NCBI GenBank assembly: GCA_007693505.1
Contig: REDL01000098.1
Span: 1-51,107, forward strand
Direction of reading: 5' to 3'
Length of the DNA: 51,107 nucleotides
DNA from: Desulfovibrionales bacterium
GTDB taxonomy: Bacteria > Desulfobacterota > Desulfovibrionia > Desulfovibrionales > Desulfonatronaceae
Part shown: positions 23,150-48,926 of the stretch, piece after piece
Position numbering within the stretch: position 1 is the first letter of the stretch
Layout of the letters: every line of letters starts with the position of its first letter
Notes under the pieces: generated by a model
Database searches by the model: none
Seen by the model: only the letters and a program-made list of their open reading frames with translations
What the model was told of the DNA's origin: nothing
Translations under genes and position numbers: made by a program

Positions 23150-24304
23150 TCAGGGGGAGGTAACGGGGATGGTGAGCGTATCACCATTGCGGAGCACGTC
23201 CAAAAGCAAAGGTCGCTGTTCTCTTGTGGCCTGCATTCCTTGCTGGTGCAGAATTTCCAGAGAGGTAATGGGGACGCCGTTGGCGGCAATGAGAATGTCT
23301 CCGGGGAGCAGGCCGGCATCCTCGGCCCGTGAGCCCGGAACCACTCCGGTAACATGTACCTGGTCGTCGGCCCAGGTGATGGCGAGTCCCAGGCGCTGCG
23401 GCTCGGGACAGTAGAAGAAAAGGTCAGCGGCGGCTGGGTTCGGTGCTGGTCCACCGCGCCAGGGCATTACGGACAGAATGCTGGGCTCGTGGCCCAGTTG
23501 CAGGAGCCGGGAAGCCACTCCATGGCCGTATTCCACATGCCCGGATCCGGCCAGGATGACCATGGGCCGCTGTTTTTGATTCAGGTGCTGGAGCGCAACA
23601 TGAGCCATCTGGGTGTCCCACAAGGACTGGATCATTATGAAACGGTCCACGTCGAAACCAGCCTCCAACGTGAAATCCGGCATCCGATCCACATGGCGGT
23701 GAAATTCTTCCTCAATGGCTTCCAGTTGTTGGTCCGGAGGAAGAATAATGGCCATTGGAAGTGCCCCGCGCTCGTCGTCAGGGATGCCTTGCAGACCATC
23801 TGCCCGGATGCGTTTGAGCAGGTTTCGGGGAACATTCAAGCCAAGCACGGGGATGTTCCACTGCTCGGCTCGCTCAAAAATGGGGCGGTAGAGCGAGAAG
23901 TCAAAGCCCCAATACGTTTCCCAGCCCAGCTCATATTGCAGTTCGTCCAGGGCAACATCCCCATTGTGAAATGCATCCAGGGTCGACTGCGCGGACCAGG
24001 GCACCATTTCCAATCCCAGGAGGATAGGTAGGTCGGCGTCAGCCAAGGTATCCACAACCCAGGCCTGAAACTGGTGGTCACAGGCATTGGCGTGGGACTC
24101 GCCGACCAGGATGAAGTCCTGTGCTGCTGAGCGCTTCGCGAATTCCGCGGCATCCAGGATCCGCCCATCAGCTTGAAAAAGCGTGCCGGGCTGAGGTGGC
24201 ATGATGGGATCCGGCGGGGGGGGAGGAAAGAGCCGGGCGCAGCCGGTACTGATGAGCACAAGGGCCAGCAGTATCGGCTGCACCCACCGGGGGATCAATC
24301 CCAC
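23150..24304 (-). CDS. ChaN-like lipoprotein with C-terminal PDZ domain
   Basis: The 384-residue product has a signal peptide (ILLALVLISTGC) ending in a Cys that fits an imperfect lipobox, so it is probably an envelope lipoprotein. Residues about 40-285 match the ChaN/DUF399 fold with LVGESHANACDHQFQ and AGSGHVEYGHGV; ChaN proteins bind haem. A PDZ domain (GVVPGSRAEDAGLLPGDIL) closes the protein. The GTG start overlaps the stop of the upstream PaaK-like gene by ten bases, so the two are coupled. Confidence 0.85.
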   Translation of the reverse strand: MGLIPRWVQPILLALVLISTGCARLFPPPPPDPIMPPQPGTLFQADGRILDAAEFAKRSAAQDFILVGESHANACDHQFQAWVVDTLADADLPILLGLEMVPWSAQSTLDAFHNGDVALDELQYELGWETYWGFDFSLYRPIFERAEQWNIPVLGLNVPRNLLKRIRADGLQGIPDDERGALPMAIILPPDQQLEAIEEEFHRHVDRMPDFTLEAGFDVDRFIMIQSLWDTQMAHVALQHLNQKQRPMVILAGSGHVEYGHGVASRLLQLGHEPSILSVMPWRGGPAPNPAAADLFFYCPEPQRLGLAITWADDQVHVTGVVPGSRAEDAGLLPGDILIAANGVPITSLEILHQQGMQATREQRPLLLDVLRNGDTLTIPVTSP

Positions 24305-25560
24305 TTACGCTTGTCCTCGATGGGTCGGATCTGGGCTGGAAGCGAGCCGGGAGCCACGACTTTCAGTTCAGGCCGCAGGCCGATTTTTTCGCGGAAATGA
24401 TGAAAGAGTTCGTTTTCCCGCTTGAATTGACTGGCTTCGATGAACAGCGCCAGCTCGTCGATGCCGCCAGGATTGGTTACCTCGATCTGCCAGCGCTTGA
24501 TTTCTTCAAAGGAGGCCATGACCTGTTCCACCTGGTGCGGGTAGACGAACATGCCCTTGATCCGGGCCGTGGTATCCACCCGTCCGACAATGGTGCCCAG
24601 GCGAGGTGAAGATCGACCGCACGGGCAGGGAGCCCGGTTGATGTAAGAAAGGTCTCCGGTGGAGAGGCGGATCAGCGGATAGGTCTTGTTGAAGGCCGTA
24701 ACGACAATTTCTCCGACTTCACCATCCTTGAGCGGAATGCCGGTGTCCGGGTGGCAGATTTCCACGAAAATGCGGTTGGAGACGTGCAGGCCGTTTTTGT
24801 GAAAGCACTCATAGCCAATGGATCCGACATCCGCGGTCCCATAGCCCTGGCGCATGATGATGTCGAACTTTTTTTCCAGGTTGTTGCGCAGTTTTTCCGG
24901 AAATTTTTCTCCAGTGACGAAAGCCACTTCCATGTAGAGATCCTTGCGCAGGTTCAGGCCGGCTTCCTCTCCTTTCTGGGCCAGGTGCATCAGGTAGCTG
25001 GGTGTCCCGATAAAGCCGGTTATTCGGAGCTTTTGCATGATATCCAACTGGGTATTGGTATTGCCTGGCCCTGCAGGCACCACGGCGCAGCCCAAATTGC
25101 GCAACGGCTCCTCGAACATGAGTCCGGCAGGGGTGAGGTGGTAATTGAAGGTGATCATGTTCACGTCACCGGGCCGGAATCCGGCTGCGTAGAAGCCCTC
25201 GGTCCACCCCCAATAGTCGTCAACGCGGTCTTCGGGGTCAAAAATGGGTCCGGGAGAAAGAAAAATGCGACGCAGCTCTCCCAGATCTTTGGTCAGCAAG
25301 CCTCCCAGACGGGGACCCATGGTCTGGAGAAAGATGAGTTCCTTCTTTTTGATGATCGGAATATGCTTCAGGTCGTTGAGCACCCTGAACTTGTCCGGAC
25401 TGAACTGAGCCCTGTCGAAGCGCTTCTTGACGTCTTCGGAATATCTGTAGGCGTATGTCAACAGGTCCTTGAGATGGATCTGGTAATATTGCCTCCGTTC
25501 GCTTTCATCGAGTACTTCCCGGCGACTGTAAATACCCTCGGTACGGTCTTTTCGGGTCAT
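24295..25560 (-). CDS. PaaK-family adenylate-forming protein lacking the canonical ATP loop
   Basis: A PaaK homologue of about 421 residues from MTRKDRTEG (ATG 25560, AAAGGA upstream); an upstream ATG at 25596 is possible. Where PaaK has SSGTTG this protein has LSPGPIFDP, so the phosphate-binding loop is not recognisable. Other motifs remain: GYGTADVGS, LSTGDLSY, a CPCG pair and IKGMFVYP with the catalytic-type Lys. It may act on a different substrate or be non-catalytic. It forms an operon with the ChaN-PDZ gene. Confidence 0.82.
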   Translation of the reverse strand: MTRKDRTEGIYSRREVLDESERRQYYQIHLKDLLTYAYRYSEDVKKRFDRAQFSPDKFRVLNDLKHIPIIKKKELIFLQTMGPRLGGLLTKDLGELRRIFLSPGPIFDPEDRVDDYWGWTEGFYAAGFRPGDVNMITFNYHLTPAGLMFEEPLRNLGCAVVPAGPGNTNTQLDIMQKLRITGFIGTPSYLMHLAQKGEEAGLNLRKDLYMEVAFVTGEKFPEKLRNNLEKKFDIIMRQGYGTADVGSIGYECFHKNGLHVSNRIFVEICHPDTGIPLKDGEVGEIVVTAFNKTYPLIRLSTGDLSYINRAPCPCGRSSPRLGTIVGRVDTTARIKGMFVYPHQVEQVMASFEEIKRWQIEVTNPGGIDELALFIEASQFKRENELFHHFREKIGLRPELKVVAPGSLPAQIRPIEDKRKWD

Positions 25561-25717
25561 GGGTGTTTCCTTTCCTCCCTGTTCATGAATATCCAATCAT
25601 AACCTATAAACATCGATAAATAACAACATGACAACGGGAAGGCAAGTCCATGAGGGCAAAGAAAATCAATGCAGTCTCGAAAGCGACGCCGTCGAGACGA
25701 ATGCAGTCAACACAGCA

Positions 25718-26001
25718 GGGCCATTGGCCATGGGCCTTTTTGTTCTCACCATTTTTTTTCTTGCAAAGACGGCTGGCTTGCCCTGTTTGGAACAGCTCGA
25801 AACTCCTTCAACGGCCTCGGAACATCAAGTCGTTGCGCCATAAAAACAGGAAGTTGTGTTTTGAGCGCCCGGCAACGACTTGATGGACGATTCCTGGTTC
25901 AGTCAAACAGGCGAAACCGGTCGATCCGTCCCAAAAAAGGCAAGCCAGCCTCAAAAATTTCATATCGTTACGTCAAAACAAAAATGCCCAGGCCAATCGC
26001 C
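25718..26001. repeat. 284-bp long inverted-repeat (MITE-like) element
   Basis: The arm at 25718-25749 is inverted relative to 25972-26001, with a shared core of ATTGGCC, TGGGC, TTTTTGTT. Inside are a perfect 12-base pair, GGCTGGCTTGCC (25771-25782) with GGCAAGCCAGCC (25939-25950), and a perfect 14-base pair, CATCAAGTCGTTGC (25823-25836) with GCAACGACTTGATG (25872-25885). The whole segment can fold into one long imperfect hairpin. No transposase is encoded. The short open frames inside have no family features. It fills the gap between the PaaK-like and FAD genes. Confidence 0.65.
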
Positions 26002-26198
26002 AAGGGGTGAAAAAACAGTTTCGATAGGTGTGGCGCTCGATGTCCTGCTACAGGGAGCAGGGCGTGCGCTTTTTTCGGTCGAAGTCGGGTATTGGGTTTG
26101 TCGGGATTTTGCCTCTTGGCAGGCAGATGACGTGCAGGAGGGAGACTGGGGCAGACTGGTTGAGCAGGTGGAAGGGGACGGGGGCGTGCCGTGAACGG

Positions 26199-27644
26199 CT
26201 AGGATTGCAGATCCTTGATAATGCCTTTGGCGGCAAGCAAGCCGGTAGCTGCTGCGGAAACGATGTTTCCGGCAACACCGGGACCATCTCCGGCAACGTA
26301 CATACCCCGCAGGGACGTCCGCAGATCCGCGTCGGTTTCCATCTGGGTGGCGAAGAATTTTATTTCCGGAGCGTACAACAGTGTCTCGTCGTTGGCCACT
26401 CCTGGGACGACGCAATTGAGTTTTTCCAAGCCTTCCACAAGGTTGGTCAGGATCCGTTCAGGCAGGGCCATGGCAATGTCCCCGCAGGTGACGTTGGAAA
26501 GGGTTGGCCGGATGAACCCTTTGGAGATGCGGTTCCAGGTGCTGCGACGGCCACGTTTGAGATCCCCGAAGCGTTGCAAAATCGGCTTGCCTCCGCCGAT
26601 CAGGCTGGCCAGGCGTCCAATGGATTCGCCGTACGCCTGGTTGTCCGTGACCGGCTCAGTGAGCACCACTTTGGAGAGAAAAGCAAAATTGCTGTTTTCG
26701 GACTTTTTATCCAGGTAGGCATGGCCGTTGACGCAAACGAAGTTCTGATAGTTTTCCAGGGAGACGTATCCCCCGCGATTCGTGCAGAATGTCCGGGTCT
26801 GGTCGTCGTATTTACGTGTCTGGATGAAAAAGGTCGGGTCGTAGATAACGTTGGTCAGGTCGTGAAGGATATCATTGTGCACCTCTACGCGCACGCCAAC
26901 CTCGATCCCCCGCTGGGTCAGGTTGATGCCGTGGGACTGGGCGATGCGTCCAGCCCATTCGGCGCCGACTCGACCAGGGGCGAGAATGACATGGCGGCAT
27001 TGCAAGGTTCCCTTGATTGTTTTCACCCCGTCGACCTTGCCCTGGTCAACCAGGATGTCCTGAACATCCTCTCCGGAACGGATAATCACGCCTTTGTCCT
27101 GGATATAGTCAGCCATGGCCGCGATGTGGTCCGGCAGTTTGTCGCTGCCCAGGTGCTTTTGCCGGATCAGCAACAGATCGATCCCGGCCTTTTTGGCCTG
27201 TTTACGAATTTCCTGGGCCTTTTCCATATCCGTGGGATAGACCGGACCATCCATCCCAAAGCGGGTGAAGACTTCCTCGGTTTCCCGGATCAATGCACGG
27301 GCATGGTCCGGAGAAAGGAACTGGGTAAGATCTGTTTTGCCAAGGATGTGGATGAAGTTCAGCTTCCCGTCGGAAAACAACCCCGCTCCGCCAATCCCAG
27401 AAAGGATGTTGCAAGGCTTGCAATGATGACAGGTCGGGCTTTGGTTCTGGCCGATGGGACACGTTCTCCGCAGGGGGGATCTGCCTTTGTCCACCAGCAT
27501 GATGCGCAAATCCGTATGTTCGGCGAGGTGAAAGGCGGCGAAAAGGCCGGCTGGCCCTCCGCCAATAATAATTACGTCCGCAGTGGGGGTTGTCGGTGAT
27601 ATTGTCAAAATGTCTCCCAATGAATCGCGCGGTGATATGCTCAA
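26199..27644 (-). CDS. FAD-dependent dehydrogenase (COG2509-type)
   Basis: A 481-residue flavoprotein. The dinucleotide-binding motif VIIIGGGPAGLFAA is near the N-terminus, followed by a cysteine-rich stretch (CPIGQNQSPTCHHCKPCN) and SGIGGAGLFSDGKLN. The C-terminal FAD site is GMYVAGDGPGVAGNI. Members of this family are uncharacterised. The track-length start is a TTG at 27644 overlapping the nitroreductase stop; a TTG at 27608 with GGGAG five bases upstream is a good alternative. It is paired with the nitroreductase, suggesting shared flavin or redox chemistry. Confidence 0.88.
   Translation of the reverse strand: MSISPRDSLGDILTISPTTPTADVIIIGGGPAGLFAAFHLAEHTDLRIMLVDKGRSPLRRTCPIGQNQSPTCHHCKPCNILSGIGGAGLFSDGKLNFIHILGKTDLTQFLSPDHARALIRETEEVFTRFGMDGPVYPTDMEKAQEIRKQAKKAGIDLLLIRQKHLGSDKLPDHIAAMADYIQDKGVIIRSGEDVQDILVDQGKVDGVKTIKGTLQCRHVILAPGRVGAEWAGRIAQSHGINLTQRGIEVGVRVEVHNDILHDLTNVIYDPTFFIQTRKYDDQTRTFCTNRGGYVSLENYQNFVCVNGHAYLDKKSENSNFAFLSKVVLTEPVTDNQAYGESIGRLASLIGGGKPILQRFGDLKRGRRSTWNRISKGFIRPTLSNVTCGDIAMALPERILTNLVEGLEKLNCVVPGVANDETLLYAPEIKFFATQMETDADLRTSLRGMYVAGDGPGVAGNIVSAAATGLLAAKGIIKDLQS

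Positions 27645-48849: not shown

Positions 48850-48926
<77 letters not shown>

Follow-up and report, generated by a model that had tools for sequence, protein, structure and literature searches.

A hairpin within a Desulfovibrionales MITE belongs to a repeat family found in two MITE types and in copies without recognisable transposon ends

A stretch of 51,107 nucleotides from a Desulfovibrionales bacterium (assembly GCA_007693505.1, contig REDL01000098.1, positions 1 to 51,107; hereafter the window) carries in one intergenic region a MITE whose interior is a member of a wider repeat family, present also in a second MITE type and in copies without recognisable ends. The hallmark of the family is a conserved asymmetric internal loop, flanked by a covarying inner stem and, in most lineages, by a long outer stem. 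The module likely works as a folded single strand, the folding strand being the reverse one, minus in the window. Taken as a whole, the data are read, as probable though well short of certain, as a family of structured repeats that MITEs carry as passengers and that work as RNA or, less likely, as single-stranded DNA; the choice of RNA over single-stranded DNA is the least certain step of this reading. The copy in the window, taken alone, is ordinary; the family that it exposes is not.

The copy in the window

The preliminary description had placed a 284-bp element with nested inverted repeats at 25718-26001. The repeats are present: the 30-nt arms of the outer stem are 83% complementary and include a perfect 12-bp run, and the perfect 14-bp inner pair was confirmed (Table 1). 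At the edges of that interval, positions 25720-25729 and 25992-26001 are better taken for the two halves of a target-site duplication than for hairpin arm. The hairpin had also been said to take up almost the entire intergenic region; the flanking ORFs lie 602 bp apart (25597-26198), and less than half of this distance is hairpin. Judged by comparison of the copies in the source genome, the true element measures 262 bp.

A 361-nt stretch folds at −135.3 kcal/mol (z = −5.2), and none of 100 dinucleotide shuffles was as stable. For the exact element the predicted fold energy was −106.2 kcal/mol on the minus strand (z = −5.7 against 200 shuffles) versus −92.4 kcal/mol on the plus strand. A counterpart was found at the same place in genome G002, where window positions 25670-25837, comprising the left part of the element and some flank, were without aligned counterpart. 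The window copy looks like an old, decayed MITE passenger with damaged ends, and may well have no function. Its 10-nt insertion is a GGCGAAGCC-type mini-hairpin adjoining the internal loop, seen also in L030, L031 and L035 and belonging to one type-1 subfamily.

Table 1. Positions of the element, its parts and the neighbouring genes in the window
Feature	Position	Strand	Basis or remark
Neighbour gene, AMP-binding ligase	24295..25596	-	downstream in the minus-strand sense
Target-site duplication, left half (GCCATTGGCC)	25720..25729		8/10 identical to right half
Whole MITE copy, 262 bp	25730..25991	-	ends and fold; minus is the strand likely to fold
Left terminal inverted repeat, degenerate; family consensus CAGGGCAWTTTTGTTCTCAC	25730..25749	+	comparison of copies, end pairs
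Outer stem, left arm	25771..25800		equivalent of the ~33-bp outer stem in free-standing copies
Core matched by covariance model R1, 129.4 bits	25788..25924	+	training set of R1 included this row
Conserved internal-loop strand (plus AACTCCTTC; minus GAAGGAGTT)	25801..25809	-	alignment of copies
Middle stem, left side	25810..25820		alignment and covariation
Inner stem, left side, 14 bp, covarying	25823..25836		inverted repeat and covariation
Terminal loop, sequence variable	25837..25871		alignment of copies
Inner stem, right side	25872..25885		inverted repeat and covariation
Middle stem, right side	25887..25898		alignment and covariation
Conserved internal-loop strand (plus TCAGTCAAACAG; minus CTGTTTGACTGA)	25899..25910	-	alignment of copies
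10-nt insertion GGCGAAACCG, marker of one subfamily	25911..25920		among 13 listed source-genome copies, 7 have the right arm shifted by 10
Outer stem, right arm	25921..25950		inverted-repeat pairing
Right terminal inverted repeat, 2 mismatches to search pattern	25972..25991	-	end-pattern match
Target-site duplication, right half (GCCAATCGCC)	25992..26001		flanks of end pair L001 1541-1802, equal to window 25730-25991
Neighbour gene, FAD-dependent oxidoreductase	26199..27644	-	upstream in the minus-strand sense

Transposon ends and target duplications

The element had been suggested to be either a MITE or a structured non-coding RNA. Support was obtained for both natures, and they hold together: for the MITE, multiple copies, shared terminal inverted repeats, 10-bp target-site duplications and, in one relative, a transposase encoded between similar ends; for a structured nucleic acid, covariation, a conserved unpaired loop and strand-specific wobble. 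Rather than a single copy lacking conservation, the element proved multicopy and conserved. The search for genome copies with target-site duplications that had been proposed gave 15 full copies of the core in the source genome (G000) by covariance model, and 10-bp duplications were found. All seven other genomes searched in the genus, which is judged to be Desulfonatronum, have matches.

Most of these type-1 copies are 249-263 bp long, with CAGGGC... ends and 10-bp target duplications. With up to 3 mismatches the end pattern gave 54 matches in the source genome, 27 per strand, and a reversed control pattern gave 3. In a separate set of 54 end pairs, taken from the collected loci and including spurious pairs, the flanking 10-mers were at least 9/10 identical in 21, as compared with 0.2% of mismatched pairs. 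At duplication lengths of 8, 9 or 11 bp no end pair reached the standard attained at 10 bp. No empty orthologous site was seen: the copy tested is common to G002 at 95% identity, and against G005 and G001 the alignment ends before the element. One copy in the source genome (L041, G000:C7:28371-28812) has ends 442 bp apart and is apparently interrupted by other sequence.

A possible autonomous partner was found at one locus, L114 (G007:C399:1015-4284), where ends matching at 16/20 and 17/20 positions (next best 12-13) enclose 1.9 kb encoding, in two ORFs, a DruA/ISAs1-type transposase with DruA, DDE_Tnp_1-associated and DDE_Tnp_1 domains; no target duplication was found at this locus. ISAs1-type elements have ends beginning CAGGG and duplications of 8-10 bp, and on this general definition of the family the MITE ends, with a CAGGG start and 10-bp duplications, are of ISAs1 type. 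PF13808 was found in 3 of 9 genomes searched. Two further DruA/ISAs1-type transposases, L115 (G002:C4) and L116 (G000:C55), are without ends matching the MITE; those of L116, located by eye, are CAGGGCTACGTCAAAGTT/CCAGGGACCCGTCAAAGTT and unlike the MITE ends. In L114 and L116, the two loci on which Pfam was run, the DruA domain lies ahead of an ISAs1-type DDE domain. MITEs with the same ends, 189-215 bp long and without a match to the core model, were also present (L053 and L071 in G006, L055 in G004), their duplications being identical at 10/10 positions in L055 and L071 and at 7/10 in L053.

Occurrence of the core in other genomes

In a Blast comparison with relatives, about 118 nt from the inside of the element were found again in other genera. 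The core was found in at least three settings, namely the type-1 MITE, a type-2 MITE and free-standing (type-3) copies. The type-2 MITE has the ends GTAACTACTCA/TGAGTAGTTAC and a length of 223-225 bp, both ends being found in G003 and G006. They were present in 7 of 10 loci examined, corresponding to 6 distinct places because L094 and L199 coincide, and perfect 8-bp duplications were found in 3 of the 6. The ends of IS66 elements start GTAA, and the type-2 ends and 8-bp duplications would fit an IS66 origin. A value of 8 is given for two IS66 elements in what appears to be the duplication column of a table in PMC3281130.

Type-3 copies, without recognisable transposon ends, are abundant in two one-contig genomes of another genus, probably Desulfomicrobium: 42 matches were obtained in G043 and 53, of which 51 strong, in G031. 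A working set of 71 free-standing copies was assembled from 39 of the 42 in G043 and 32 in 30 fetched loci of G031 (genome total 53), leaving out copies whose motif failed the regular expression, copies at locus ends and duplicates. When offsets were scanned in these 71 copies, no signal of a target duplication was found. A second frequent repeat, CCAAGGAGGGGTGCCCGAAGGGCGGGGTGGTTG, adjoins several free-standing copies in G043 (e.g. L162, L185 and L163). The G043/G031 pairs L160/L232 and L161/L230 have near-identical flanks and look orthologous; the arms of L160 and L232 differ, with pairing largely kept.

Of 199 genomes in the order, 28 were matched by the first covariance model (R1), which was built from 44 copies. 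The second model drew on 70 matches and found the core in 5 of 395 genomes of a phylum sample, these being the source genome and 4 outside the order. The further matches fall in other families and in two lineages outside the order. Since at most 16 (order) and 7 (phylum) candidates per genome were scored, under stricter filters, copy numbers from these scans are lower bounds and weak matches were lost; in G005 and G054 the count is 16 or more per genome. Four cores arranged in tandem were observed at L285 6440-7276 (G012:C1), with a period of about 226 bp, and at L288 5029-6026 (G057:C7), with a period of 274-295 bp.

Structure of the module

From the base, the module consists of the outer stem, the asymmetric internal loop, the middle stem, the 14-bp inner stem and a variable loop. 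The proportion of paired cells in the aligned copies was 91.2%; shuffles gave 80.5%, and slid structures no more than 42.4%. Two-sided changes were found in 19 of 27 tested pairs (10.6 in shuffles).

The outer stem is about 33 bp long. Across the 71 type-3 copies, Watson-Crick pairs occur in 37-70 copies at each of positions 1-33 and in 56 or more at 29 of these positions; pairing then drops to 36, 20 and 19 copies at positions 34-36. Most positions show several pair types, so that sequence varies while pairing is kept. Among distant-lineage copies with a motif recognised by the script (6 of 12 loci in family f55), 25-30 of the 33 positions were paired in 12 copies of G033, G045 and G059 (L203-L224), with 32/33 in L213; the corresponding values were 23-27 in the G012 array and 27-30 in six f55 copies. 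The stem is missing or broken in some lineages (L200, 12/33; L202, 14/33; L225, 18/33; one L201 copy, 11/33).

The unpaired internal loop is conserved while the stems change. Its two conserved strands are separated by a nearly constant 63-68 nt in 61 copies and by more in distant lineages. Two pairs lie within the loop. At columns 20-117 T-A was found in 30 of 44 copies, C-G in 8 and non-pairs in 6, and at columns 19-118 C-G was found in 41 of 44, with G-C and A-T in distant lineages and exceptions such as L223. On the reverse strand both pairs are flanked by G.A/A.G steps, an arrangement that suggests a kink-turn-like motif.

Folding strand and orientation to replication

Mismatches in the outer stem differ between the strands. 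When unpaired cells were scored in a strand-neutral manner in the 42 G043 copies and 3 type-2 copies of G006 (one further copy, L198, was dropped for want of a recognisable motif), A.C was found 86 times and G.T 11 times. By genome the counts were 81 versus 10 in G043 and 75 versus 11 in G031, 156 to 21 in sum, and C.T exceeded A.G by 37 to 7 and 21 to 4, respectively. Removal of the recurrent positions 4 and 7 left A.C versus G.T at 57 versus 10 (G043) and 56 versus 11 (G031). On the complementary strand these mismatches read G.U and G.A, which are tolerated in a folded strand, and the reverse strand is therefore taken as the one that folds. It was predicted to be the more stable in 62 of the 71 copies (mean −111.4 versus −102.7 kcal/mol). 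The pooled asymmetry test mixed loci of both genera, 3 of 64 being dropped for weak pairing, and P values such as its binomial P overstate the strength of the result because the copies share ancestry. The source genome shows only a weak asymmetry (A.C 19 versus G.T 12 in total for its 13 listed copies), so that MITE-borne copies may be relaxed.

In fragments of G043 the GC skew is for the most part positive on the side that runs from about 3.5 Mb past 0 to about 1.65 Mb, and for the most part negative on the rest of the genome. By local GC skew the AACTCC strand lies on the leading strand in 35 of 39 copies in G043 and in 27 of 32 in G031 (62 of 71 together), from which it follows that the strand taken to fold runs against the fork. 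This bias is established for the free-standing copies only. In the source genome, 10 of the 14 copies retrieved have agreeing 4-kb skews, and the 51-kb skew of the window has the same sign, weakly; in G006 agreement was found for only 3 of 6 copies. The nine copies of opposite or zero local skew have A.C 22 versus G.T 2, so the asymmetry follows the element and not the replication strand; as far as these reversed copies allow, replication-driven mutation was excluded as its cause. Inverted repeats are unstable when the more stable fold lies on the lagging-strand template. The head-on orientation could, as a conjecture, reflect this instability, the better-folding strand being favoured on the other side.

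Proposed explanation and alternatives

In the structured-RNA reading, RNA would be made when transcripts read through a copy; as both flanking genes are on the minus strand, the window copy would lie inside such a read-through transcript. A host protein would recognise the loop, which on the folded strand reads CUGUYU-GA-CY-GA...GA-RG-GA-GUU, with possible tandem G.A pairs of kink-turn-like form, and the outer stem would act as a double-stranded ruler of about 33 bp, nearly free in sequence. MITEs would be the vehicles, copies of the core having been moved by DruA/ISAs1-type and IS66-type transposases. Because G.T is tolerated in single-stranded DNA folds too, the wobble pairs do not establish RNA, and the orientation that tracks replication in two genomes counts against RNA, since it is not explained by an ordinary RNA gene. 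Further points against the reading are that neither a promoter nor a U-run is conserved next to the copies, that codirectional gene pairs divide 7 versus 7 in orientation, that the wobble asymmetry is weak in the source genome, that some lineages have the long outer stem broken or missing, and that the L114 transposase is split over two ORFs and shows no target duplication.

A more far-reaching proposition, offered tentatively and with more doubt than belief, is that this is a previously undescribed strand-specific structured element (RNA or folded single-stranded DNA), with a k-turn-like loop about 33 bp from the base of a stem nearly free in sequence. Its most numerous form would lie against the fork and seems to be retained at fixed loci while undergoing compensatory changes, and the element would be cargo of at least two unrelated transposon lineages. 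This would suggest, if true, that the loop is read and the stem length measured by some unknown protein, of the host or of the element.

The chief competitor, considered unlikely, is that the hairpin acts as single-stranded DNA, the free-standing copies having spread by replication-linked single-strand recombination with the loop as enzyme recognition site; by analogy, and with the same low likelihood, the enzyme might act as IS200/IS605-type or RAYT enzymes do on hairpins, or integrases on attC. Such a process would account for the strong orientation bias relative to replication (35/39 and 27/32) and for the lack of a target-duplication signal in the 71 copies, and Y1 transposase domains were detected in 16 of 18 element-bearing genomes tested versus 4 of 8 lacking the element, presence or absence being taken from the scan of the order. 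Against it, no Y1 domain was detected in the element-rich G005 and G054, which nevertheless have their 16 or more copies each, so that a Y1 transposase as required mobiliser was rejected. The strand carrying G.T is, by deduction, not the lagging-strand template in the majority orientation, the six G006 copies are without orientation bias (3/6), and no enzyme gene was recognised beside the single-copy or arrayed loci examined.

An ordinary MITE, in which the fold is merely the palindromic interior of a transposon derivative with function limited to transposition, is quite improbable as an account of the family. It holds for the ends, the target duplications and the copy number in the genus of the source genome, and palindromic MITEs are common according to the text of PMC10969869. 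For the core it is hard to sustain: the core recurs without type-1 ends in other genera and within another kind of MITE, L053, L055 and L071 are MITEs of 189-215 bp that have the type-1 ends but lack the core, and the unpaired loop is conserved while the stems change. For the window copy it stands. Mutational maintenance of a palindrome, by template switching during replication that corrects one arm from the other with no selection on folding, is the least credible, for although arms that vary strongly yet stay paired over 33 positions and an orientation tracking replication in two genomes would suit it, it predicts no element-strand mismatch asymmetry where A.C to G.T was 156 to 21 (22 to 2 in the nine copies of opposite local skew), and it leaves the conserved asymmetric loop and the drop in pairing past position 33 unexplained.

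Comparison with described elements

The literature searches, which covered papers and not supplementary motif lists, found no paper on the repeat. The cargo shared by two MITE types, the stem of set length and free sequence, the strand asymmetry and the replication polarity were not seen elsewhere in the literature searched. Integron attC sites keep their structure with little stem sequence conservation and are folded as single strands, and in both respects resemble the module; here conservation falls on a loop in the middle of the hairpin, and among the neighbours examined neither an integrase nor a cassette was recognised.

Dispersed palindromes (NEMIS, RUP, ERIC, REPIN) and candidate structured mobile or repeat sequences are established kinds in the cited portions of PMC2229807, PMC10969869, PMC3116915 and PMC11109978, and the family fits this broad kind. 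It shares with MITEs of IS families (RUP, Correia/NEMIS, QMITE2), as described in PMC10969869 and PMC2229807, a short, non-coding, intergenic nature, terminal inverted repeats, target duplications of fixed length and a transcript predicted as a stable stem-loop. It differs in that its interior is a homologous structured module in two unrelated MITE types and lacks recognisable ends in other genera. ERIC and the intergenic repeat units of enterobacteria are likewise dispersed intergenic palindromes with no evident mobiliser; compared by review descriptions and general knowledge, the present family differs in its asymmetric loop, nearly free outer stem of about 33 bp and replication-linked orientation in two genomes.

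With REPIN/RAYT, as presented in PMC3116915, it has in common dispersed hairpins, tandem clusters and proposed single-strand intermediates. A REPIN is described there as a pair of mutually inverted REPs linked to a RAYT gene, whereas each copy here is one long hairpin, no RAYT was recognised among the 20 neighbour proteins examined, and two element-rich genomes are without detected Y1. A likeness is also found to mobile/repeat candidates of PMC11109978 such as MRSC-65-2, which is described with dozens of copies per genome, a long covarying stem, inconsistent gene orientation and an RNA-or-DNA nature left open. MRSC-65-2 is said to consist of one long stem in which the motif UYCCGG is repeated, and this sets it apart from the present family, whose motif is a different internal loop; the family may be the same as another candidate listed in that paper.

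Bacterial intergenic palindromes are usually explained as transposon ends or terminators, and the constrained part here is neither. Wobble pairs indicate which strand folds, with pairing kept while the stem sequence drifts. The role of ERIC-like and REP-like repeats, at the level of RNA or single-stranded DNA, becomes testable in a genus with 40-50 copies per genome.

Genomic surroundings

Gene context in G043 was taken from a simple home-made gene caller. Of the 42 copies, 41 are clear of any called gene. Convergent genes flank 19 of them, codirectional genes 14 and divergent genes 4, and the context of 5 is incomplete. A cis-regulatory element of fixed gene orientation was rejected, as the codirectional copies divide 7 versus 7, which gives no sign of a cis role, and, among the 37 copies with a called gene on either side, just 4 lie in divergent pairs. 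No promoter-like or T-run consensus was found on either flank, in RNA orientation, in the 71 copies. The copies do not fit an intrinsic terminator, as no conserved T-run follows the stem on either side; the sole terminator-like site found is outside the element.

No Rfam family reached the gathering score, either for the window element or for 14 loci representing several lineages, and weak matches were far below the cut-off (e.g. RNA-OUT, 19.5 bits). A phage or plasmid element was likewise rejected, with no match in viral contigs (searched with one exact pattern), plasmids or phages. No cognate enzyme was recognised among 20 proteins near single-copy and arrayed loci: 19 have Pfam domains of metabolism, transport, regulation or translation, and L284:6064-7104 has no match. 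In the window, a 113-aa ORF over the element has no Pfam match, and a tRNA gene is located at 48850-48923 (Rfam tRNA, 75.3 bits).
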